Shown here piece after piece: positions 51,553 through 64,000 of a stretch of DNA of 64,000 bases. Under the pieces are notes generated by a model. The model did no database searches. It was not told the origin of the DNA and saw only the letters and a program-made list of their open reading frames with translations. How positions within the stretch are numbered: the first letter of the stretch is position 1; each line of letters opens with the position of its first letter. Both the position numbers and the translations under genes were made by a program. The DNA comes from Rhizobium skierniewicense. Lineage in GTDB: Bacteria; Pseudomonadota; Alphaproteobacteria; Rhizobiales; Rhizobiaceae. The stretch covers positions 1 to 64,000 of the forward strand of contig NZ_JACIDV010000010.1 in assembly GCF_014196515.1 (NCBI RefSeq), in the 5' to 3' direction.

Positions 51553-53118
51553 ATGCGTAAGACCAGTCGCAGAAGTTTTATGATGGGCGCCGGGGCGATA
51601 GCTCTCGCGTCAACCGCAGGCGGAAATTTTGCATCTGCCGCGGATCGTCGCGCGTTGCGCATCGGTGTAAATGGGCTACCTCCGTCGCTGGAGCCGATCA
51701 ACGGCATTAGCAACACCGGCCCGCGTATCATCAACCAGATTTTTGATGCCTTGATCCGGCGCGACTATTTTGCGGATGGTGCCAAAGGCAACAATATCAA
51801 GCTTGTGCCGGCACTCGCTGAAAGCTTCGAACGGATTGACGACAAGTCCATCCGGTTCAAGCTTCGGCAAGGCGTCAAATTTCACAACGGCGCCGAGATG
51901 ACGGCGGAAGATGTTGCGTTCACCTTCTCTTCTGAGCGGCTGTGGGGTGACGAAGCGATCAAGACGGTTCCGAATGGCCGAAATTTTTCTCCCAACTGGG
52001 ACGAGCCGGTCGTGGAAGACAAGTACACCGTCGTTTTGCGTACCAAGACGCCGTCCTATCTCATCGAGAAATATCTCGGCTCCTGGCTCGGCCCGATCGT
52101 CCCGAAGGAGTATTACAAGAGCCTCGGTGCAGTTGCCTTCGGTAACAAGCCGATCGGCACAGGGCCATACAAGTTCAGGGAGCTTGTCGCTAACGATCAT
52201 GTGACGTTGGAAGCGAATGACGGTTACTGGGGCGATAAGCCTACGGCCTCGACAATCACTTACCAGGTCGTAGCGGAGCCAGCCACGCGCGTGGCCGGTC
52301 TGATCAGTGGTGAGTATGACATCATCACGACGTTGACGCCGGACGACATGGCGTTGGTTGACGGCTACTCTGACCTCGAAACGCGTGGCACGCTGATCGA
52401 GAACCTCCATATGTTCACGTTCAACATGAACCAGCCAATCTTCCAGAACAAGACTTTGCGTCGTGCTCTGGCGCTTGCTGTCAATCGGCCGCTTATCGTC
52501 GAGGCTTTGTGGAAGAATAAGGCTTCCATACCGAACGGCTTTAATTTCCCGCATTACGGCGCGACTTACGACCCGAAGCGGAAGCCTATGGAATTCAACC
52601 TCAAAGAGGCCAAGCGTCTTGTCAAGGAAAGCGGTTACGACGGCACCCCGATCACCTATCATACGATGGGCAACTATTACGCCAACGCTGTCCCCGCGTT
52701 GATGATGATGATTGAGATGTGGAAAGCCGCCGGCATCACCGTCGTGCCGAAGATCTTTGCGCCGGGGACGACACCCAAGGACTCCGACATTCTAATCCGC
52801 AACTGGTCGAACGGCCAGTGGCTGACGGACGGCCTCACAACGATGGTATCGGAATTTGGTCCTGGCCGCGGTGTCCAGAAGCGCTGGGGTTGGAAGGCAC
52901 CTGCAGAGTTCAACAACCTCTGCGACCAGGTGGCCCAGCTGAAGGATGGCGAAGAGCGTTCCGCAGCCTTCAACCGCCTTCGTGATATCTTCGAGGACGA
53001 AGCTCCTGCTGTCCTGATGTATCAGCCTTACGATGTCTACGCTGCACGCAAAGACGTCCAGTGGAGTCCTGTTTCATTCGAGACCATGGAATTCCGCGGA
53101 AACCTCAATTTCAAATAA
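51553..53118 (+). CDS. accA: AccA agrocinopine-binding periplasmic protein
   Basis: A 521-residue family 5 solute-binding protein. The N-terminus has a twin-arginine signal (TSRRSFMMGAGA) with cleavage near AAD at about residues 29-31. The mature protein shows the SBP_bac_5 signature LAESFERIDDKSIRFKLRQG and VKFHNGAEMTAEDVAFTF. It captures agrocinopine (and in C58 also agrocin 84) for the AccBCDE transporter. Aggaggacaa-type ribosome-binding sequence precedes it. Confidence 0.95.
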   Translation: MRKTSRRSFMMGAGAIALASTAGGNFASAADRRALRIGVNGLPPSLEPINGISNTGPRIINQIFDALIRRDYFADGAKGNNIKLVPALAESFERIDDKSIRFKLRQGVKFHNGAEMTAEDVAFTFSSERLWGDEAIKTVPNGRNFSPNWDEPVVEDKYTVVLRTKTPSYLIEKYLGSWLGPIVPKEYYKSLGAVAFGNKPIGTGPYKFRELVANDHVTLEANDGYWGDKPTASTITYQVVAEPATRVAGLISGEYDIITTLTPDDMALVDGYSDLETRGTLIENLHMFTFNMNQPIFQNKTLRRALALAVNRPLIVEALWKNKASIPNGFNFPHYGATYDPKRKPMEFNLKEAKRLVKESGYDGTPITYHTMGNYYANAVPALMMMIEMWKAAGITVVPKIFAPGTTPKDSDILIRNWSNGQWLTDGLTTMVSEFGPGRGVQKRWGWKAPAEFNNLCDQVAQLKDGEERSAAFNRLRDIFEDEAPAVLMYQPYDVYAARKDVQWSPVSFETMEFRGNLNFK

Positions 53119-53174
53119 CAACAATCCAACGAGATGGCGGTGCGCATCCGTGCGCACCGCTCAGGGAGGATGAA

Positions 53175-54122
53175 ATGTCTACTTTGTTGAATGTTCGTGA
53201 TCTCGTGGTCGAGGTGCCGGCCCGCAATATCCGGATTATCGACGGTGTCAGTTTCTCTTTGGAAGCCGGCCAGACGCTGGGGCTCGTTGGCGAGTCTGGT
53301 TGTGGAAAAAGCATGACGTGCTACGCGGTGGGCAACATGCTTCCGCGGGGAATTGCGAAAACCGGCGGATCAATCGAATTCGGAGCGAACCGGACGGCGT
53401 CCGCCAAATCCGGCAAGCCGACGATCGCGATGATCTTTCAGGACCCGACAAGCAGCCTGAACCCGGTCCACACGATCGGCTACTACCTGGAGTCCGCCCT
53501 TTACCGCCACCAGGGTCTGAAAGGCATTGATGCTCGGCTGGAAGCGATGCGGCTTCTTGAGCGTGTCGGTATCGATCGGGCCAAAAGCCGGCTGCGATCC
53601 TACCCGCATCAATTCTCCGGCGGCATGAACCAGCGCGTTATGATCGCCCATGCTCTGGCAGCAAAGCCCCAACTTTTGATCGCCGACGAGCCGACGACGG
53701 CGCTCGATGTGACGATGCAGGCACAGATCCTTCATCTGCTCGAAGAACTGAAAGCCGAGACCGGCATGGCGCTGATTATTGTATCCCACGATCTAGGTGT
53801 TATCGCGCGTCTCGCCGATAGGGCGGCAGTGATGTACTGCGGAAAAATCGTCGAGACGGCGCCCGTTGCGGAATTGTTTGAAAGACCGGCCCATCCGTAT
53901 GCTCGCGCTCTGATCGAATGCATGCCGAGTATCGAGGCGGACGATCTCGAACCGCCGGTCCCGATCCCCGGATCTGTACCGCTACTCGATAACCTTCCCC
54001 AGGGCTGTTATTTCCATCCGCGCTGTTTGCGAGCGACGGCAGAATGTTCGACGCGGTTTCCGGCGCCTGCGAATGTCGGCTTCGCGCATGAAGCGGCCTG
54101 TTATCATCCGGTGGCTGCATGA
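53175..54122 (+). CDS. accB: AccB ABC transporter ATPase
   Basis: A 315-residue DppD/OppD-type ATPase: Walker A GESGCGKS at about residues 37-44, Q-loop [11 protein letters not shown], signature FSGGMNQRV, Walker [13 protein letters not shown], and the C-terminal oligopeptide-transporter Cys cluster region (GCYFHPRC). It starts at 53175 after gggaggatga. It pairs with AccC to energise agrocinopine uptake. Confidence 0.94.
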
Positions 54123-55135
54123 GCGCGCCCCTCCTCAAGACACGCGACTTGTCGAAGGCCTTCGGTCAGAAGACCGGCTTTTTCTCGAAGTCGACCAGCC
54201 TGTTTGCTTCCAGGAAGATCAATCTGGAACTGGCGCCCCGCGAGAGGCTCGGAATTGTCGGGGAATCCGGAAGTGGCAAATCGACACTCGGCAGACTTCT
54301 CCTCGGCCTGACACCGCCAACGAGCGGTGACATCTGGTTCGAAGGCGTGAACCACAAGGAACGGACTGCTCAGGACTGGAAGAACTTCCGCATACACACA
54401 TCGCTCGTTCAACAGAACCCCTTGTCGGCTTTGAATCCGCAGATGACCATCGGCGAGCAGATTGCCGAGGGCCTTATTGTCCATCACGTGACGGACCGAG
54501 CGGTTGCCTATGAGCGGGCTGCGGCCATGCTTGAGCGGGTCGGCCTGTCGAGCGTAATGATGGACCGCTATCCGCACCAGATGTCTGGCGGCCAAAGACA
54601 GCGCGTCGTTATCGCTCGGGCTCTCATCCTTGATCCGAAGCTGGTCGTCTTCGATGAAGCCGTATCCGCTCTAGATGTCTCCGTTCAGGCGCAGGTTGTG
54701 GCGCTGCTGCGGGAACTCTGGCGTGACTTAGATCTTGCCTACGTCTTTATTACCCACGACCTACGCATTGTTCGTCATCTCGTTGACCGGATTGCGGTGA
54801 TGTATCTGGGGTGCGTCGTCGAGACGGGTGATATCAGGTCGGTCTACCAATGGCCGCGTCATCCTTACACACGTGCGCTACTTGCATCTGTCCCTACCAT
54901 GGACCCGACTGTGCGCAACGTCGAACCGCCGATCAAGGGTGAGTTGGACATAACGAAAGCCGGTCAGGGCTGTGCTTTCCGTTCGCGCTGTCCGTTTGCT
55001 ATCGACAGATGCACGAATGAGACGCCAGCACTTCGATCGGTCGGGGACCAGCAGGTGGCATGCCATAGGGCTGAAGAGTTCCCTCGATCAATCGCTTCCT
55101 TGCCGGCAGACTCGCAGCAGAAGGAGATTGCCTAA
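54119..55135 (+). CDS. accC: AccC ABC transporter ATPase
   Basis: A 338-residue DppF/OppF-type ATPase: Walker A GESGSGKST, signature MSGGQRQRVVIARAL, Walker B LVVFDEAVSALDVS and a C-terminal GCAFRSRCPFAIDRC cluster. The ATG overlaps the accB stop. The usual DEP(T/V) of Walker B is DEA here, which keeps the catalytic Glu. Confidence 0.94.
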   Translation: MSAPLLKTRDLSKAFGQKTGFFSKSTSLFASRKINLELAPRERLGIVGESGSGKSTLGRLLLGLTPPTSGDIWFEGVNHKERTAQDWKNFRIHTSLVQQNPLSALNPQMTIGEQIAEGLIVHHVTDRAVAYERAAAMLERVGLSSVMMDRYPHQMSGGQRQRVVIARALILDPKLVVFDEAVSALDVSVQAQVVALLRELWRDLDLAYVFITHDLRIVRHLVDRIAVMYLGCVVETGDIRSVYQWPRHPYTRALLASVPTMDPTVRNVEPPIKGELDITKAGQGCAFRSRCPFAIDRCTNETPALRSVGDQQVACHRAEEFPRSIASLPADSQQKEIA

Positions 55136-56052
55136 TGGTGGCATTCATTTTTGCCCGCCTGGTCCGGGCTGTCATTGTGCTTGTATTCACCGTAACGCTT
55201 GTTTTTGTTGTTCTGCGCTTAAGCGGAGATGCCGCGCAACAGATGTTGCCTGACACTGCGAGCCCCGAGGCGTTGGCCGCCTTCCGGACCAAGTGGGGGC
55301 TCGATCGGTCTATTGTCGAGCAATACCTGATTTACGTCGTTAACGCATTGAGAGGCGATTTCGGGACTTCATACGCCGATGGCCGAGACGTCTTCGATGT
55401 CGTCAGTGAGCGAATCCCGAAAACGCTGCTTCTTACGGTCTCGGCCTTTGTTCTTAGCATGTTGATCGGAATTCCAGCCGGCATCCTTGCTGCGGTTCGG
55501 CGGGAGTCCGCTGTTGACAAGGGCGTCATGGCAGGCGCTGTACTCGGCTACAGCATTCCCAACTTTCTGCTGGGTCTTGTGTTTGTCTTTGTATTCGCTG
55601 TCTGGCTGCGGGTGCTCCCGAGCTCGGGAAGTTCGTCATGGAACCACGTGATCCTGCCGGTCGCGACATTTGCTTTGTTCAATGCCGCCGCCATTGCGCG
55701 GTTCATGCGCTCGACCCTGATCGATGTTCTTGGCCAACCTTACATCGCTGCGGCTCGCGCTGACGGCATCCCAAACTGGGAAATCATACTCCGCCATGCT
55801 TTGCCAAACGCGGCGATACCTATGGTGACCACGCTCGGCTTCACCGCTGGTGGACTGCTGGGCGGCGCCGTTCTGATCGAACCAGTGTTTGCGTGGCCGG
55901 GGCTCGGCAGCGGTTTCGTCGCGGCAACCAGCAGCGGCGACCTGTCGGTCGTTCAGGCAATGATCCTGCTCTTCACGGCATTTATGGTGACGATCAACCT
56001 GACCGTCGATGTCCTCTACGCGGTTCTCAACCCCAAAATCAGGAAGCACTGA
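55135..56052 (+). CDS. accD: AccD ABC transporter permease
   Basis: A 305-residue DppB-type permease with six predicted membrane helices (LVRAVIVLVFTVTLVFVVLR at the N-terminus) and the EAA-loop region QPYIAAARADGIPNWEIILR followed by HALPNAAIPMVT. It forms the channel with AccE. Its ATG touches the last base of the accC stop. Confidence 0.94.
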   Translation: MVAFIFARLVRAVIVLVFTVTLVFVVLRLSGDAAQQMLPDTASPEALAAFRTKWGLDRSIVEQYLIYVVNALRGDFGTSYADGRDVFDVVSERIPKTLLLTVSAFVLSMLIGIPAGILAAVRRESAVDKGVMAGAVLGYSIPNFLLGLVFVFVFAVWLRVLPSSGSSSWNHVILPVATFALFNAAAIARFMRSTLIDVLGQPYIAAARADGIPNWEIILRHALPNAAIPMVTTLGFTAGGLLGGAVLIEPVFAWPGLGSGFVAATSSGDLSVVQAMILLFTAFMVTINLTVDVLYAVLNPKIRKH

Positions 56053-56053
56053 C

Positions 56054-56920
56054 ATGACGACAGCGACAGCTTCACGCTCGTTGAAGAGCACCGTGTGGGC
56101 TCCCTTTCATCGTATGCCGGTCATCATTGGACTGTGCTGTGCCTGGATTGCCATCGTCGTAATCATCGGCATCACGGCGCGGTGGGCAGCACCCTATGAT
56201 TACCTCCATCAGGACCCGCTGGCCCGGTTTGCCAAGCCGTTTGTGTCGGTAGCTCATATGCTCGGGACCGACTACCTTGGCCGAGACGTTGTCAGCAATC
56301 TCTTGGTTGCAACCCAGACGACCCTGATGATCGCGGTCGTCGGATCGCTTATTTGCGCCCTGATCGGCACATGCCTGGGGCTGATCGCCGCCCATTTCGG
56401 CGGGTGGATCGATAATGCGATCATGGGTTTTTCCGACGCCATGGCATCTGTTCCATTCATCATCGTCGCATTAGGTATTCTCGCAATCTTCGGGTCGAGC
56501 CCACTGTTGTTTGTTTTTCTGGTCGGGTTCGCGAACTGGGAACGCTATGCGCGCTTGACCCGGGGGCTCGTGCTGAGCGCGAAAGAGGAAGGGTATGCGG
56601 AGGCGGCACGGATCGTTGGCGTGCCGCCGATGCGAATCTACTTGCGTCACATGCTGCCGAACATTGCGGGGCCGCTCATCGTACAATTCACTGTCAATTT
56701 CCCGGAAATCATTCTTCTCGAAAGCGGTTTGAGCTTTCTCGGTCTCGGCATCCAGCCCCCGGCCACGAGTCTCGGATTGATGGTCGCTGACGGCCGTAAC
56801 TATCTCGCTATCGCCTGGTGGCTGGCTGCGTTTCCGGGCGCGGTAATCGTGTTGACAACCCTGTCGATCAGCCTGCTCGGCGACTATCTGCGTGACCGCT
56901 TCGATGCGCGGCTCCGTTAA
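56054..56920 (+). CDS. accE: AccE ABC transporter permease
   Basis: A 288-residue DppC-type permease: N-terminal helix (VIIGLCCAWIAIVVIIGITA), the LGTDYLGRDVVSNLL motif, EAA loop EEGYAEAARIVGVPPMRIYL followed by RHMLPNIAGPLIV. It starts two bases after the accD stop. Confidence 0.94.
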   Translation: MTTATASRSLKSTVWAPFHRMPVIIGLCCAWIAIVVIIGITARWAAPYDYLHQDPLARFAKPFVSVAHMLGTDYLGRDVVSNLLVATQTTLMIAVVGSLICALIGTCLGLIAAHFGGWIDNAIMGFSDAMASVPFIIVALGILAIFGSSPLLFVFLVGFANWERYARLTRGLVLSAKEEGYAEAARIVGVPPMRIYLRHMLPNIAGPLIVQFTVNFPEIILLESGLSFLGLGIQPPATSLGLMVADGRNYLAIAWWLAAFPGAVIVLTTLSISLLGDYLRDRFDARLR

Positions 56921-56935
56921 ACGAAAGGAAACAAA

Positions 56936-57739
56936 ATGAACCCGCTGAGAATGACGCCAAAGACAATGCGCGTCGCTGGCCATCGCGGCCATAGCGAAGG
57001 CGCGCCGGAAAATACGTATGCTGCGTTTCGCGCGGCCCGCGAGTTTGCCGGACCCGGCGTGACCTGCGAAACTGACCTGCGCATTACCAGTGACGGTGAA
57101 CTGGTCCTGATACACGATGAAACCGTCGATCGGACCACCGACGGCAATGGCCTGATCTGCAACATGGCCTATTCCGAGATTGCCGCCTTGAGTGCCGGCC
57201 GATGGTTCGGCGAGGAGTTTAGAGACGAGCGAATTCCACGCCTCAGGGACGCGCTGCACTTCGCCCGCGAGCACAACATCATCTATCAGCTTGAGCTGAA
57301 GACCTATGGTCATGACGACGTGTTCTTCCCGAAGCTCCGGGCGATCATCGATGAACTCGATTGTGCTGACCTGCTGCAGTTCTCGTCCTTCGACTTTGTC
57401 CAGCTCCGGGCTCTGAAGAAATCTATTCCAGAGGTGCCGACTGTCGGCTTGTCGCATTCGCGCCTTCTCGATCCGGCCGCCATCGCACGCGAAGCCAACG
57501 TTGATGCCATCAACCTTGAGATCCACCATTTTCCAAGCGGAGAAGCAATCCAGCTCCATGACGGCGGGATTGCGACTTTCCTCCACGTTCCACCCCCGAG
57601 CAAACTGAAGAGTCTCAAGACGTACGGCGTCGATATCGAAGCCGACGTCGTTCGCTGGATTCGCGAAGGTCAGCTTGATCAGCTCATCAGCAACGATGTG
57701 TCGCAGGCCGCGCGGCTCAAGGACGAAGCCAATGGCTGA
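56936..57739 (+). CDS. accF: AccF agrocinopine phosphodiesterase
   Basis: A 267-residue glycerophosphodiester phosphodiesterase-family enzyme. It shows the GDPD motifs GHRGHSEGAPENTYAAF and HDETVDRTTDGNG, with metal ligands Glu and Asp (CETDLRIT) and the later YQLELKTYG. In C58, AccF cleaves agrocinopine A to sucrose and arabinose-2-phosphate. Ribosome-binding site cgaaaggaaac upstream. It overlaps accG by 8 bases. Confidence 0.94.
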   Translation: MNPLRMTPKTMRVAGHRGHSEGAPENTYAAFRAAREFAGPGVTCETDLRITSDGELVLIHDETVDRTTDGNGLICNMAYSEIAALSAGRWFGEEFRDERIPRLRDALHFAREHNIIYQLELKTYGHDDVFFPKLRAIIDELDCADLLQFSSFDFVQLRALKKSIPEVPTVGLSHSRLLDPAAIAREANVDAINLEIHHFPSGEAIQLHDGGIATFLHVPPPSKLKSLKTYGVDIEADVVRWIREGQLDQLISNDVSQAARLKDEANG

Positions 57740-58538
57740 TTTGCATACGGGGCACACGGTAGAGGCCATCGTAGAAGAGATTGCGAGAAAAGCGGGCGCA
57801 CTCGCCCTTCAGTATTTCCGCAAGCTCGCTGATTTGCCTGTCGAGAAAAAGGGCCATCTTGATCTCGTGACGGAAGCTGACAGGCAGGTCGAAGAATTCC
57901 TAATCGCCAATCTCAAGAGATCTTTTCCGGAAGACGGCGTCTATGGCGAGGAAGGTGGCGAGATCAATGGAACGTCCGGACGGACCTGGGTCATCGATCC
58001 TATAGATGGGACGTTCAATTTTGTTCGTGGCGGCCAGAACTGGGCGATTTCCATCGGACTTTATGAACACCGTCGGCCGGTCTTTGGTGTGATCTACGCC
58101 CCCGTGCGAGATTTGATGCTGACTGGCGGCAGGGACGTCGAGACGCAATTGAACGACAAGCCCTTGCAACCAATTCCTCCGCTCGATCTTTCCCGGGCTT
58201 CAATGGGAGTTGGTCTTCATCCGTCGGTGGCGACCGAAGACCGGCTCGAAGTTGTTCGCTTCATCTCCGATGATCTTCGTATCAGCTTCCGCTGCTGCGG
58301 TTCGGCAACGTTGTCTCTCATCGAGGTGGCGATGGGTGAAACCGATGGCTATGTGTCGTTGGGCGATTCGACCTGGGATGTGATGGCGGCGTTGCCGATA
58401 CTCGGCAATCTTGGCGTCTCGCATACGATTGACTGGGACAGAACCGAACTACCGCAGAAGCTCCGTTTTGCTTGTGGAAGCGACACTTTTCTGGAGAAAG
58501 TAAGACCACTGCTCCAGAAAGTGGCGGTTGCTGCCTAA
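57732..58538 (+). CDS. accG: AccG arabinose-phosphate phosphatase-like protein
   Basis: A 268-residue inositol monophosphatase-family enzyme: DLVTEADRQVEEFL, GEEGGE metal-binding Glu residues, the motif WVIDPIDGTFNFVRG and the C-terminal STWDVMAALPIL. It dephosphorylates the sugar phosphate released by AccF. The start overlaps accF, and the stop overlaps the next ATG (58538). Confidence 0.93.
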   Translation: MADLHTGHTVEAIVEEIARKAGALALQYFRKLADLPVEKKGHLDLVTEADRQVEEFLIANLKRSFPEDGVYGEEGGEINGTSGRTWVIDPIDGTFNFVRGGQNWAISIGLYEHRRPVFGVIYAPVRDLMLTGGRDVETQLNDKPLQPIPPLDLSRASMGVGLHPSVATEDRLEVVRFISDDLRISFRCCGSATLSLIEVAMGETDGYVSLGDSTWDVMAALPILGNLGVSHTIDWDRTELPQKLRFACGSDTFLEKVRPLLQKVAVAA

Positions 58539-59008
58539 TGCGGCGTGATGCCACCAGAATATGTCAAACACCACTCGGCGCGAAGGTCGACCAATACGCG
58601 GCACTTTGTACGCGATCGGCCGACCTCGCCCCCGGTGACGTTGAGGTTCTCCTCATCACGAGCCGAGATACCGGCCGTTGGGTAATACCCAAAGGTTGGC
58701 CGATGAGTAAGAAGAAGCCGCATCAGGTTGCTAAACAGGAAGCGTGGGAAGAGGCAGGGGTCAGAGGGCGTGTCAGCAAGTTGCCTCTTGGCCACTACAC
58801 CTACGATAAGAAGATCTCTCTGGATGAGGTTCTTCCCTGTCTCGTTCAGGTTTATCTGCTGATGGTTTCGGAGGTCGAAGACGAGTTCCCTGAGAAGGGC
58901 CAACGCCGCAAAAGGTGGTGTTCACCAGCGGATGCCGCTCTGGCAGTAAATGAACCCGGACTCCAGCAGCTTCTCTTCAATTTGGGCGGCCAGAACGCCG
59001 ACGTTTAG
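58538..59008 (+). CDS. Nudix hydrolase appended to the acc operon
   Basis: A 156-residue Nudix protein of the diphosphoinositol-polyphosphate phosphohydrolase-like class: WVIPKGWPMSKKKPHQVAKQ followed by EAWEEAGVRG. The REUXEE part is present as QEAWEEAG; the first Glu of the Nudix box is Lys, as in many alphaproteobacterial members. Its ATG overlaps the accG stop, so it is translated with the operon. A role in clearing nucleotide-sugar or phosphosugar by-products is possible but unproven. Confidence 0.85.
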   Translation: MRRDATRICQTPLGAKVDQYAALCTRSADLAPGDVEVLLITSRDTGRWVIPKGWPMSKKKPHQVAKQEAWEEAGVRGRVSKLPLGHYTYDKKISLDEVLPCLVQVYLLMVSEVEDEFPEKGQRRKRWCSPADAALAVNEPGLQQLLFNLGGQNADV

Positions 59009-59066
59009 CGTCGCCGGCCAGTCGGAACTTCTGACAATCTCAGCGAGCGACGCGATCGAGGATACT

Positions 59067-60047
59067 ATGGATATCAATCTGTTGAGAAAGACCCCGGATT
59101 TGAGAGGGGTTGCGGACATTCGACTGGTGACGCTCGAGGATGGTCCCGCGCGAGGTCAAAGACTACTCATTGCCCGGAACGCGAAGGGGATTTCATTCGA
59201 GATTGCCGTCGACAGAGGATTTGATGTCTCCAGTCTTTCTTTCAAGGGCGTGAACATCGGCTGGAATTCGCCGGCACAAATGCGGTTTCCTCCGTCTGAT
59301 CCCGGCTCGGAGGACGGGTGGGGGTTCCTGCGCAACTTCGATGGCTTCATGGTGACCTGCGGACTTGACCACGTCAGCCGCCCGCGCGAAACGGATATTT
59401 CGCACTACGGACACCCCCATCTTAAAACGAGAAAAATGCCGCAGCACGGTAGGATCTCCACCGAGAAAGCGCGGTTGGTGGGATATGGGGTCGACCAGGG
59501 CAGCGAGGAAATCTTTTGTGAGGGCATCGTCAGGCAGGCAAGTGTATTTGGTGAGACACTCGAATTGCGGCGGCGCGTAACACTTGGGATATTTGCCTCT
59601 GAAATAGTGATCGATGATGTGGTTACCAATCGAGGCTTCGTCCCGTCCCATCACGCGATGATCTACCACCTGAATTTGGGGTATCCGTTTCTTGATGAGA
59701 ACCTGGAGTTCACAGGTCTACCTGAACTTCTCGCGGCAAAAATGCTGGTTGAGCAACCTCTGCCAAATGACAAATACGGTGAGCGCGTGGATTCTGTAGA
59801 TAGTCGCGATATTCCCTGGTCCGATCCCATCATGCTCTCAAACCCGGCGCTCGATGTATCTGTGGGCTTATCGTTCAGCCGAACGCACCTGAACAGGCTG
59901 GCGATCTGGCGAGCGTATCAATCAGGTATGTACGCCCTTGGCGTCGAGCCTCGTACCGACATCGCAGAAGACCGTCCACTCCTGCAGCCGGGGGAGAGCT
60001 GCAACTATACGATCGGATTGGTGTTTGGCTCCTATGAGGGCGCTTGA
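59067..60047 (+). CDS. DUF4432/aldose-1-epimerase-like protein
   Basis: A 326-residue protein of the galactose-mutarotase-like DUF4432 family: FEIAVDRGFDVSSLSFKGVN, PGSEDGWGFLRNFDGFMVTC, GLDHVSRPRETD, then HLNLGYPFLD. Conserved His and Glu residues of the beta-sandwich active site appear present. The ATG at 59067 is preferred to upstream codons inside the Nudix gene. It may interconvert sugar anomers from agrocinopine breakdown; this is inference from neighbours. Confidence 0.82.
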   Translation: MDINLLRKTPDLRGVADIRLVTLEDGPARGQRLLIARNAKGISFEIAVDRGFDVSSLSFKGVNIGWNSPAQMRFPPSDPGSEDGWGFLRNFDGFMVTCGLDHVSRPRETDISHYGHPHLKTRKMPQHGRISTEKARLVGYGVDQGSEEIFCEGIVRQASVFGETLELRRRVTLGIFASEIVIDDVVTNRGFVPSHHAMIYHLNLGYPFLDENLEFTGLPELLAAKMLVEQPLPNDKYGERVDSVDSRDIPWSDPIMLSNPALDVSVGLSFSRTHLNRLAIWRAYQSGMYALGVEPRTDIAEDRPLLQPGESCNYTIGLVFGSYEGA

Positions 60048-60464
60048 AGCTTGGCGACAGTGACGACCTTTTCCTCGAGCTGAAACCATCCGCGTGAAAA
60101 AGAGGAGGGGCGCCTCAAAGTCATGCCCGGTCTGATCAACCATGTCGTCTCGTGGGCATAGTCCCCGGCATCGGTTCTTCCAAAAATTTTACGGAAGTGG
60201 TCGCACAAAATTCCGGACATCGCAGCGGGTCGAAAAGATAGTCTTTATCACCGCGCTTTGCCATGCTGCATCTCAGTTGAAGGGAATTTGCTAGACACGA
60301 GGACGGAACCAGACGAACGTGAAGAATAACACAGCGAATGGCTTGGTTCCATCCTCGACGGGCAGATTGAGGTCCACGGTGACAAGCGCCTGACAAATAA
60401 ACTGGCAATCGCCAAATTGTTTCCCAGCGTTCACTGAAATCGACTTACCGCACCTCTGCAGCAG
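60048..60464. other. Region between acc genes and the T-DNA border
   Basis: About 420 bases with no convincing gene. A minus-strand frame of 67 codons (60291-60494) crosses the border repeat and is probably not native. Confidence 0.4.
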
Positions 60465-60489
60465 CGGCAGGATATATGGCAGTGTAAAC
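60465..60489 (+). repeat. T-DNA border repeat 1
   Basis: A 25-bp match to the Ti border consensus: cggcaggatatat at 60465-60477, six variable bases (ggcagt), then gtaaac at 60484-60489. VirD2 cleaves such repeats. In this orientation T-DNA lies to the right, so it acts as a left border for the acs segment. Confidence 0.93.
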
Positions 60490-61253
60490 TCCATTTTCGA
60501 ACGCGGTTCAGGGCACCTACGATTATCGAAAAAGGATAACGGCTGCAGGAATATATATGACTATGAAAAGTGCGGGCGTTGTGGCCTTACTGGGTGTGAA
60601 ATCGCCGTCAGTTTTTGAACTTACTGAACACGTGTTTATGGCATTTAGTATAGCCGTATGCGGGATTTCCGCCTTCCGTTTTGTCAGCGGGAAGCCGCGA
60701 GACAGTGGAATGACCCGTACTGCAATCTGAGCCTATGAAAGAAACACAAAATCAATCAGCGAGAGAGAAACTTTTGTTTCTCTGAATCAAAAGCGGACCG
60801 AGGCAATCATGCCATTTTATCGACTTTGAGCCTGAATTGAAGTTTATTCGCATCAACGAGTAAATACTTTAATGGTGATTGTAAGACGAAATAGGTTAGG
60901 CCCGTCATGAATACCTAACAGGTCCCACTAGAAGGCATCTTGATTTAATAAAATTGCTCATAATTCAGTTAAGAGCGCGACGATGTATTATGTACCGATA
61001 AGACCGTAAATTATTCTGGGCAATTGTCGAATGAAATTATTTCGAATTTTATCTGCTGAAATAATTTCGCAATACATTATAATATAAGATAAATGTCTGA
61101 AAACAATACATAGTCCCATGTCAAATTACAAAGCAAGTGAACGGTGCATACGGCCGAATATGTCCGATCTTATTTGATATTTGAATTTAAAGTACTCAGT
61201 ATTCAGAAATACTTCAATAACTGTGCGCATTCGTCAACAAAAAATTACGAAGC
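60490..61253. other. AT-rich T-DNA between border 1 and acs
   Basis: 764 bases, strongly AT-rich, without genes on either strand. It lies 3' of acs and should contain the plant polyadenylation signals. An aataaa reads on the minus strand at 60843-60848. Acctaacaggtccc-like or overdrive sequences were not recognised. Confidence 0.5.
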
Positions 61254-62543
61254 CTACTCCTCTTCAGAATCGTAGATGTCAAGGTGAGGTGCCTGCACGT
61301 CGACCCTACGTTTGACGCCAGCGCTCTTCCAAGCAAGTAAAGCCATGTCGTCCTCTGAGCGGTCGGAAATTACCAAATCTGGAAGATCATGCAGCAGGGG
61401 TATACCAGGCGTTCCTTGGCGACAGCGGATGTAATGGCGAAGGTCGGTGTCCCATGCTTCCTCTCTACCGGTGAAAAACTCGTTATGGAATTGCAACCTT
61501 TTTCCTTGTGTCACAGCACTAAAATCGTAACTTCGGGTACCGGTCGAGAGTTTTAGGTTTGGTCTCGCTTCCTTTATATCGCGATCAAACTTTACATAGT
61601 AAGCCAAACGCGTGCTCGCTTCGCTAGCCCTGTACGCGAGTCTTTCGTCTTCAGTTGCCGCGTCTTCTAAAGTGTCTTCAGAAACGTAGGACAGCATAGT
61701 TTGAACAGCAAAAATGCAAATGTCTTGGGCGAGGACGGAATCAATCCAATATTTTGCAGCCCCATATATTTCATCAACAGTCGGATGAGAATGCCCCAGA
61801 TCCCTTGCGATCCGAACCATTTCCATTGGAAAAAGCATAGGCATGAGGGGCACAGTCTGCCTCCATCGAGGTTCCGGATCTGCACTCTCTACCAGTTGCA
61901 CAAAGTGATCCCCATCAATGTACTTGAAGGTGTAGAATAGAAGAGCAACCTTGCCAAAATACGCCGACCTATAGCTTAACCAGGCCACGATGAGATGAGC
62001 TTCGTCATCGCGGCCGTCGAGAATGAAGGTTGCGTCCGGATTCACCTGAATCGCGCTGTCGAGGATATCTTCAAGAGTGCTTATAGTCTGGTCAGTAACC
62101 CTGTAGTTTGTCTCAGAGATCTTACCGTTCTCGATCTCGCGTATGATGACTGGTCGTCCAACGATCTGATGGGACAAAAATTTGCGAACCGGCTTATCCT
62201 CATCTAAAGCAGCAACACGAAATACATTGAATTCGTGAGCGACGATTGGAACGCCGTCCGCCGTGAGCGCAATGTCAATTTCACAAAGGTTTCTATGCCC
62301 CTCTCCAATCGCGGACAAAATAGCTGTTTTCGTACATTCTTGAATTCCCTTTCCCAAGTTAAACATGCCTCTGTGCTCAACAACCTGAACATCGAGTTTC
62401 TCGTCAAGCTTCTGGAGCAGATTTGGCGTCGAGTAACGTGCCAGCACTTCAGAGACACTTGTTCCAGCGGGGAGATCCCACTCTAGTTCCCACATCGGCC
62501 AGTTGGTATCACTCCGTCGTCTCGGCTTCCTCTGAGAAAGCAC
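61254..62543 (-). CDS. acs: Agrocinopine synthase (T-DNA gene, expressed in plants)
   Basis: A 429-residue protein related to glycerophosphodiester phosphodiesterase folds (EHRGMFNLGKGIQECTKTAI, CEIDIALTADGVPIVAHEFN), as known for Acs, which makes the sugar phosphodiester agrocinopine. Composition is AT-rich and a plant-type TATA box lies upstream, consistent with expression in the host. Starts at 62543 or at Met17 (62495, MWELEWDLPAG) are both possible. Both borders flank it. Confidence 0.88.
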   Translation of the reverse strand: MLSQRKPRRRSDTNWPMWELEWDLPAGTSVSEVLARYSTPNLLQKLDEKLDVQVVEHRGMFNLGKGIQECTKTAILSAIGEGHRNLCEIDIALTADGVPIVAHEFNVFRVAALDEDKPVRKFLSHQIVGRPVIIREIENGKISETNYRVTDQTISTLEDILDSAIQVNPDATFILDGRDDEAHLIVAWLSYRSAYFGKVALLFYTFKYIDGDHFVQLVESADPEPRWRQTVPLMPMLFPMEMVRIARDLGHSHPTVDEIYGAAKYWIDSVLAQDICIFAVQTMLSYVSEDTLEDAATEDERLAYRASEASTRLAYYVKFDRDIKEARPNLKLSTGTRSYDFSAVTQGKRLQFHNEFFTGREEAWDTDLRHYIRCRQGTPGIPLLHDLPDLVISDRSEDDMALLAWKSAGVKRRVDVQAPHLDIYDSEEE

Positions 62544-62674
62544 CTGCAGGTAAGTTAATGTTGAGGACTCACAGAAAAATAATAAAAAAAGAAAAATGCC
62601 TGCTCTACCTCCATTGTTTATGCCGCTATTTTCTTAAATTGACTAGATAATATTAATAGTCTGCATACCGAATA

Positions 62675-62682
62675 TATTTATA
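62675..62682 (-). promoter_or_regulatory. Plant-type TATA box of acs
   Basis: On the minus strand ctataaatatatt lies about 135 bases before the acs ATG, in an AT-rich stretch typical of T-DNA gene promoters. Confidence 0.6.
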
Positions 62683-62773
62683 GATAGCTTTACCTGTCTT
62701 ATTGACGTAAGCGCTTACGTTATTAACTCTGGGTTCTAACCAATCGACAGGTGGGCCAGTAGCATTACGGCGG

Positions 62774-62798
62774 CGGCAGGATATATTCAAATGTAAAT
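62774..62798 (+). repeat. T-DNA border repeat 2
   Basis: A 25-bp border: cggcaggatatat at 62774-62786, tcaaat, then gtaaat at 62793-62798. It differs by one base from the octopine TL-DNA left border as recalled. It lies in direct orientation to border 1. Confidence 0.93.
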
Positions 62799-63300
62799 GG
62801 CGTGATGTTCGGGAATTTTACATGGCACATCAATGAGCATGGTGGTTGATACAGAGCAAAAACTAACTATGCAATAGGCGTAGTAAATTGCAAATTCTTT
62901 ACAGAAATATGCATCACATGAATCGAAATATTATAACTCATTGCATTGATAAAGCGATAAAATGAAATACTTCCTCCGATGATTGTGATTTGAAATGCCT
63001 AAATTAGCATCGAGATGGGGAGTAGGTGAGAATTACGCGAACGTTAAAATTGTTTGGCCGAACATCACGCCTTTGTCGGCGATTTCAATAAGATGCGTGT
63101 CCCACTTGTAGAAAGTCTTAATAACAATCAATATTTTAATAGGGTAAAAAGACGAAATACTTCGGTGCTCATTTTAAAATTAGTTAATTTAAATCAATCC
63201 CGTGATTGATGATTTTGAGTACCAATAATACGGCCACCGAAGCCCATTTAATTATGAGATATAACTGAATTTATATTCAAAAATCAGTCACTAATTCGAG
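62799..63300. other. AT-rich T-DNA leader of the gene 5-like ORF
   Basis: About 500 bases of AT-rich sequence without bacterial-type genes. Tttatattc at about 63270 could be a TATA element for the following gene. Confidence 0.45.
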
Positions 63301-63969
63301 ATGTATGACAGTCAGCCGATATTCAACATTATCGACAGCTCGAATCTACAAGACCGGCGTGAACTTAAACTCGTTCTAATTCACACCGCGAATGCTCGCC
63401 GCAGTTTTGCACAAAAAAGTCTCATAGCTGCTCAACGCTCGTGGATAAATTTAATCACTAATACTGATGTTCCCATTGATCCACCTAAAGACAAAGTGGT
63501 CAAGCGCTTTTGCGAAGTTGCGGGCTGCCCAGGTCCAACAGATATACCCAATGTATCTTTGATGTACGTTTATTGCTCGTTTCAAGAAATGCGAGAGTAT
63601 GCACAGAAGCGATTTTATGACGGCGCTTCCGACGGAGGCGCAGTTATCTCCACCGTCCCACCCTATGCCGAAGGGATAACAAAACAAACTATGAGGTTGT
63701 GGCAGAAAAATGTTTATCAAAATACAAGCAACGAGACACATGATTTGGATGCTTACATTGCTTTTCTTCCGAGTACGTCGCTTCAAAATCCGATTTTCTC
63801 GCATATGAAGATCGGCGGCAATAGCTTCTTAGCGCCATCCCGGATTGGTCCTTTCTGTGTTGAAATAATCGCGGTCGGCAAGACTCTCTTTCAGGATAAC
63901 GGGCTGAAAAAGGAGCCCAAGATGTGGTGTGATATGGCTTTCACTTCCTTGTGGAAGCGTTTGGTCTAA
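63301..63969 (+). CDS. T-DNA gene 5-like (RolB/plast family) protein
   Basis: A 222-residue protein of the plast (RolB-like) oncogene family: IFNIIDSSNLQDRRELKLVL, RFYDGASDGGAVISTVPPYA, then FLPSTSLQNPIFSHMKIGGN and SFLAPSRIGPFCVEII. In octopine TL-DNA gene 5 (indole-lactate synthesis) is the first gene inside the left border, the same position as here. No bacterial ribosome-binding site precedes it. Other plast members cannot be excluded. Confidence 0.75.
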   Translation: MYDSQPIFNIIDSSNLQDRRELKLVLIHTANARRSFAQKSLIAAQRSWINLITNTDVPIDPPKDKVVKRFCEVAGCPGPTDIPNVSLMYVYCSFQEMREYAQKRFYDGASDGGAVISTVPPYAEGITKQTMRLWQKNVYQNTSNETHDLDAYIAFLPSTSLQNPIFSHMKIGGNSFLAPSRIGPFCVEIIAVGKTLFQDNGLKKEPKMWCDMAFTSLWKRLV

Positions 63970-64000
63970 CGTGCAGAGGTGTGTTGGCGGGGATGAAGCA

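Follow-up and report, generated by a model that had tools for sequence, protein, structure and literature searches.

The window analysed here is a stretch of 64,000 nucleotides of Rhizobium skierniewicense, positions 1 to 64,000 of contig NZ_JACIDV010000010.1 (197,362 bp). Towards its right end, opine genes, two T-DNA borders and the beginning of a TL-type T-DNA follow one another:

53061..60047, + strand: acc-type genes for the transport and catabolism of opines, to the left of B1
60465..60489, + strand: border 1 (B1), outer left border, belonging to the acc-linked T-DNA end that carries acs
61254..62495, - strand: acs, an intact gene of the agrocinopine synthase family (413 aa; GDPD family by Pfam)
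62675..62684, - strand: TATA-box-like TCTATAAATA of the putative acs plant promoter, aligned in the window, FPH-AT4 and AB2/73
62703..62722, - strand: ocs-element-like palindrome of the putative acs promoter, about 50 bp inside B2
62768..62861, + strand: stretch common with octopine-type TL left ends (B2 and its inner flank, 82-83% identity)
62774..62798, + strand: border 2 (B2), inner left border, octopine TL type
63301..63969, + strand: gene 5-like oncogene (RolB family by Pfam), first gene of the TL-type T-DNA

The two borders are direct repeats 2309 bp apart, and both combine the GGCAGGATATAT core with the GTAAA tail of a T-DNA border repeat. The pattern GGCAGGATATATN6GTAAA has exactly two perfect matches in the 64 kb, and a match was found in none of 100 dinucleotide shuffles even with up to one mismatch allowed. 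A looser pattern with up to three mismatches gives 0.76 chance matches on average, which is why weight is given to the strict one. The shuffles rule out a chance origin of B1 and B2. The sole long gene from one border to the other is acs, within which lie two overlapping open reading frames of 83-84 aa. The description in an earlier note, made from the letters of this DNA, of two 25-bp borders in the same orientation that flank acs alone is thus borne out. Further right the contig holds three more borders, at 76073, 93839 and 103440, all on the + strand, the first of which is likely the TL right border. The tail of the border at 103440 (TGGCAGGATATATGACGGTGTCGTG) is off the consensus, unlike that of the final border of the pTiBo542 stretch.

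To the left of B1, the acc-type cluster encodes two ABC ATPases, two permeases, a GDPD protein, an inositol monophosphatase, a NUDIX protein and a DUF4432 protein; the GDPD and DUF4432 proteins were assigned by Pfam and the remainder by gene order in the annotated FPH-AT4. The name "acc operon" is taken from PMC8554961.

The name agrocinopine synthase comes from the annotation of relatives and from 46-49% identity to C58-type acs; by homology (GDPD family, the same 46-49% to the C58 type and 81% to AB2/73) the acs product qualifies as a predicted agrocinopine synthase. Agrocinopines C and D are found in Bo542 tumours. The gene appears constrained, with a dN/dS of 0.15 against FPH-AT4 and 0.12 against AB2/73 (Nei-Gojobori), the comparison with CFBP4996 being saturated. 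Upstream of it, the ocs-element-like palindrome agrees at 19 of 20 positions with the ocs-element consensus, and occupies the same place in FPH-AT4 and AB2/73. Because an intact, constrained acs is joined to these promoter motifs, the interval between B1 and B2 looks like a complete plant expression unit. Its orientation, spacing and motifs are those of an independent T-DNA in the sense of direct-repeat borders around a candidate plant-expressible gene. A second copy of acs was not found in the strain's own genome at E values up to 1e-5. Residues 36-195 of the acs protein (window positions 61257-62495) also match the NCBIfam model of the AvrBs2 effector with an E value of 4.5e-20, at 71 bits against a cut-off of 1000.

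How widespread is this arrangement? Positions 60000-64000 matched 122 records of the plasmid collection, a count from which records of the window's own genome may have been left out, and 13 of these cover at least 80% of the query. Both borders are present in all 13, with B1 identical in 13 and B2 in 12; they lie 2309 bp apart in nine records, 2310 bp in two, 2262 bp in CFBP5481 and 2291 bp in FPH-AT4. These records are not independent: 2788 and CFBP2788 look like one strain, and LBA1190 and LBA1191 look like pTiBo542 derivatives. Conservation among near-identical plasmids was therefore rejected as evidence, FPH-AT4 alone giving depth to the comparison. Since a nopaline-type right border accompanies the two-border layout in pTi2788, pTi15-1187-1-2a, pTi14-818c and FPH-AT4, the layout is seen with different right ends. 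It was also found in an A. larrymoorei contig, the sole distinct locus in a scan of genome contigs, and in one further genome; at E values up to 1e-20, acs itself is present in 3 of 394 family genomes, the strain's own included. In pTi_CFBP5481 (L019, 1094-2288) acs is broken into two annotated pieces and the border spacing is 47 bp shorter; a third border was not seen within the first 30 kb of that record.

The closest counterparts are two well-known plasmids. From B1 to the end of the window (3536 bp) the DNA is 100% identical to the TL-DNA of pTiChry5 (NZ_KX388536) and 99.5% identical to that of pTiBo542 (NC_010929), both of which have the same order and spacing of borders, acs and gene 5. 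No difference in layout to either was found within 60465-64000; right of gene 5, pTiBo542 carries an IS1312 element. With the same left T-DNA end and a similar size (197,362 vs 197,268 bp), the contig is of the pTiChry5/pTiBo542 type, type being defined here by left T-DNA end and size. The two-border layout thus belongs to known reference plasmids and is not a new kind of system, and the novelty that the earlier note had held out for it falls away at the sequence level, an identical layout standing in both reference records. The literature searched (PMC6733357, PMC8554961, PMC6546132, PMC10410297, PMC11885899, PMC8855067, PMC10674353, PMC5606197 and PMC4788154) yielded no description of the internal border of pTiBo542 and pTiChry5 in the portions of these articles that were accessible.

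B2 had been described as almost the octopine TL left border, and it does agree with that of pTi15955 at 24 of 25 positions. The likeness continues inwards. Homology to octopine-type ends starts at 62768 (CFBP5877, L-11) or 62770 (pTi15955), 4-6 bp left of B2, runs to 62861, with 83% identity over 92 bp to pTi15955, and resumes from 63055 through gene 5. A near-identical repeat with a homologous inner flank (62770-62861) marks B2 as an octopine-type TL left border, and the gene 5-like oncogene expected behind it is confirmed by Pfam as a member of the RolB family. DNA homologous to the gene 5 region is present in the octopine, CFBP5877 and C58 records. In pTi15955 the left border is followed by gene 5, as in the window, but there is no acs before gene 5, and an outer border was not found in the stretch read.

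Some relatives do have an acs at this place. CFBP5877 and the vitis plasmid Tun201 carry a C58-type acs between the octopine-type left border and gene 5; it is absent from pTi15955 between two flanks that are each 89% identical to CFBP5877, and the TL part of the window is likewise without such an inner C58-type acs. The collinearity of C58 with CFBP5877 begins 192 bp past the first base of that plasmid's border, and no border was found there in C58. In the nopaline T-DNA of C58 one acs-like gene adjoins the outer left border and another acs precedes gene 5, both of a lineage other than that of the window acs, with no internal border found; this T-DNA looks like a comparable compound T-DNA that lacks such a border.

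The acs beside B1 has other relatives. Its amino acid identity is 93% to FPH-AT4, 81% to AB2/73 and 73% to CFBP4996, as against 46-49% to the C58, CFBP5877, L-11, G190, vitis, K15/93, pRiA4 and S. meliloti types and 42% to CFBP5473. In a tree of 17 hand-chosen acs rows and three accF rows (134 plasmid records match acs, 60 of them listed; matches shorter than 300 residues were dropped), the window acs groups with AB2/73 and CFBP4996, apart from the C58/vitis type. The dividing fork has a support of 89/99, and the deeper forks have bootstrap values of 88-89%. That acs is a copy of the C58-type gene is ruled out by its belonging to another lineage. PMC8554961 describes the AB2/73 acs as most like those of pTiBo542 and pTiChry5, in agreement with the tree.

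This acs type also recurs in a similar setting. The order of acc genes, left border and acs is found again in AB2/73, CFBP4996 and pRiA4: in T-DNA2 of pTiAB2/73 and the T-DNA of pTiCFBP4996 the acc operon is followed by a left border and then by the same acs type, as in the window, whereas pRiA4 has this order with another acs type. B1 and the CFBP4996 left border have TGTAAACTCCATT in common. Behind acs, AB2/73 and CFBP4996 differ from the window in that other genes and a right border follow, and a second left border was not found in the stretches read. These orders are not seamless, because AB2/73 has an IS3 transposase gene between its border and acs, and pRiA4 a porin gene between acc genes and border. 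In pTiCFBP5473 (L039, 4231-10537) two border-like sites, of which the right one has one mismatch, enclose acs together with a trehalose-6-phosphate synthase gene, a T-DNA content that is not known from elsewhere. An acs-family gene of S. meliloti M270 accessoryB (L040, 5692-6924) is 47% identical to the window acs; a border was not seen in the 16 kb that were read.

Taken together, the recurrence of the acc-border-acs order, the grouping of acs and the homology of the B2 flank suggest that an acc-linked left end with its border and acs abuts a TL-DNA that has no acs of its own. The earlier note had seen in this an acs cassette inserted outside an octopine-type TL-DNA. Its right-hand half holds: an octopine-type TL left end is recognisable in B2 and about 60 bp inside it, and the acs genes of such ends come from a different lineage than the one next to B1. 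The idea of an inserted cassette fares less well, since the occurrence of the acc-border-acs order in AB2/73, CFBP4996 and pRiA4 makes B2 the more likely place of the derived junction. We infer from the sequence comparison that acc, B1 and acs form the earlier unit, the junction at B2 being derived. This history is argued from gene order, a trace of the joining event itself not having been found. The 50 bp to the left of B2 matched 79 records, and among the 60 listed there was no new source for this DNA; they comprised the 13 known plasmids, a weak AB2/73 stretch, the border with a few adjoining bases and a few that are likely due to chance. Between the window and FPH-AT4, dS is 0.05 for gene 5 (63301-63966 vs L014, 7869-8549) and about 0.22 for the acs, accF-like and DUF4432 genes; there is perhaps a recombination edge near gene 5.

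Can the sequence around B2 tell which kind of border it is? The overdrive core (TGTTTGTT) is matched at 7 or more of its 8 positions within 60 bp to the right of 10 out of 13 right borders and of none out of 14 left borders (Fisher p 3e-5), a contrast to be read with threshold and distance set after a first look, with left and right labels assigned from gene order and with borders that are partly related and hence not independent. The right borders below this level are those of C58, FPH-AT4 and AB2/73, and an overdrive-like sequence close on the right is thus not an absolute mark. The best match at B2 reaches 6/8 in the window and 6/8 in FPH-AT4. Over 200 bp the contrast weakens, since B1 of Bo542 and both B1 and B2 of FPH-AT4 also attain 7/8. 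With the 24-mer overdrive sequence, the TL right border of this plasmid scores 15/24 (p 0.035), the C58 left border 16/24 (p 0.015) and B2 13/24, which is at shuffle level (p 0.6). The tail of B2, GTAAAT, is of the left type. Judged by these motifs, B2 looks like a left border.

According to PMC8855067, transfer of backbone is common in vectors with a single left border, further left borders lower read-through, and initiation at left borders is reported as well. Binary vectors with multiple left borders resemble the window in their tandem left borders, the extra ones lowering read-through (PMC8855067); however, they were engineered against backbone transfer, while in the window a gene sits between the borders.

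We favour, with a probability of roughly 0.55, a compound left end, that is two T-DNA left ends joined in tandem, in which the internal left border has been retained and acs is delivered by read-through. An older end of acc operon, B1 and acs would have been joined to an octopine-type TL-DNA, made up of B2, gene 5, iaaH, iaaM, ipt and onwards, which was without the inner acs of its relatives, and B2 would still have the look of a working left border. T-strands would start at the TL right border (contig 76073) and run leftwards. VirD2 may also cut at B2, the strands dividing into some share of stop, read-through and initiation. Those that stop at B2 would measure 13.3 kb and carry oncogenes only, and those that read through to B1 would measure 15.6 kb and carry the oncogenes together with acs. 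If acs is kept for a role in plants, the DNA left of B2 must regularly enter them, by read-through or by initiation. Read-through of B2 would be the most likely route, favoured because B2 is left-type and without an overdrive core and because of the behaviour of left borders in vectors (PMC8855067). Occasional or weak initiation at B2 may add a 2.3-kb strand with acs only.

Could B2 instead be an uncut fossil? The functional TL-DNA would then extend undivided over the 15.6 kb between B1 and the right border at 76073, acs being the gene furthest left. The pTiBo542 and pTiChry5 records are numbered from the first base of B1, which suggests that their depositors took B1 as the left end; the constraint on acs is as expected if the gene is always delivered, and C58 offers what looks like the same compound without an internal border. 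We nevertheless consider a dead B2 unlikely. Its core and GTAAA tail are intact in all 13 records, including FPH-AT4, in which the adjacent non-coding DNA is 80-81% identical, and its sequence is close to that of borders known to work.

The comparison with FPH-AT4 can be put in numbers. B1 is identical at 25 of 25 positions and B2 at 23, the changes in B2 falling on position 1 and on the variable spacer position 15. In non-coding DNA the two plasmids are 72% identical from B1 up to acs, 81% identical from acs to B2 and 80% identical from B2 to gene 5; for the 98 bp that adjoin B1 on its outer side the figure is 90%. Of 1472 non-coding 25-bp windows, 2.4% are free of differences and 17.7% show two or fewer. 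By these flank identities and window frequencies, B1 stands out on its inner side only, and B2 does not stand out on its own: with 2 of 25 positions different, conservation beyond chance was not found for B2 in FPH-AT4 taken alone.

A true opine-only mini-T-DNA, with B2 as right border and regular export of a separate 2.3-kb acs strand, appears rather improbable to us. The borders are correctly arranged for it, direct repeats at a distance of 2309 bp with the constrained gene and its promoter motifs between them, left-border initiation has been reported (PMC8855067), and acs must somehow pass B2 if it is selected in plants. Against it stand the features of B2 itself: the 24/25 match to an octopine left border, the left-type GTAAAT tail, no overdrive core within 60 bp and a best 24-mer match of 13/24. 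Nor is it a right-type border, as in the short units of pRL7 and S. meliloti M270, or close to TTTGTTTG, as are three of the four right-type borders of those units whose flanks were read. The export of a small opine-only T-DNA, as first proposed for this locus, is therefore possible and not indicated. That this plasmid family launches acs alone from B2, so that an opine-only T-DNA enters cells without oncogenes, we regard as distinctly improbable; were it so, opine production would be separated from tumour growth in dose and in cell.

The short units just mentioned deserve a description of their own. pRL7 of Rhizobium johnstonii 3841 (L043, 4854-14587) has three units of 1.2-1.6 kb, each with a left-type and a right-type border, and S. 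meliloti M270 (L044, 8617-9833) has three border-flanked units of 1.1-1.3 kb and a lone border. One of the units holds a RolB-family gene, and pRLa12 of R. leguminosarum has a near copy of another, at a distance of about 8 kb from virD1 and virC. On plasmids of pea and Medicago symbionts, these units look like single-gene mini-T-DNAs in nodule bacteria.

For the compound left end with its retained border, the consequences begin with the plasmids in use. The disarmed plasmids carried by EHA101 and EHA105 descend from pTiBo542, and Chry5 too is available in partially disarmed strains (PMC11885899). It is therefore of practical value to know the end points of the T-DNA in these plasmids. In the stretches read of EHA105 (L018, 5733) and EHA101 (L034, 3922), B1 and a truncated acs are retained and B2 was not found. 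In principle, strands running into the plasmid backbone could set out from the lone B1 of these plasmids.

For the biology of the family, an internal left border that has been retained offers a natural setting in which to see how reliably T-strands end at left borders. Octopine plasmids and C58, when set beside the window, further suggest that T-DNAs grow by joining, and that the same kind of joint may keep its internal border, as in the window, or have none, as in C58.
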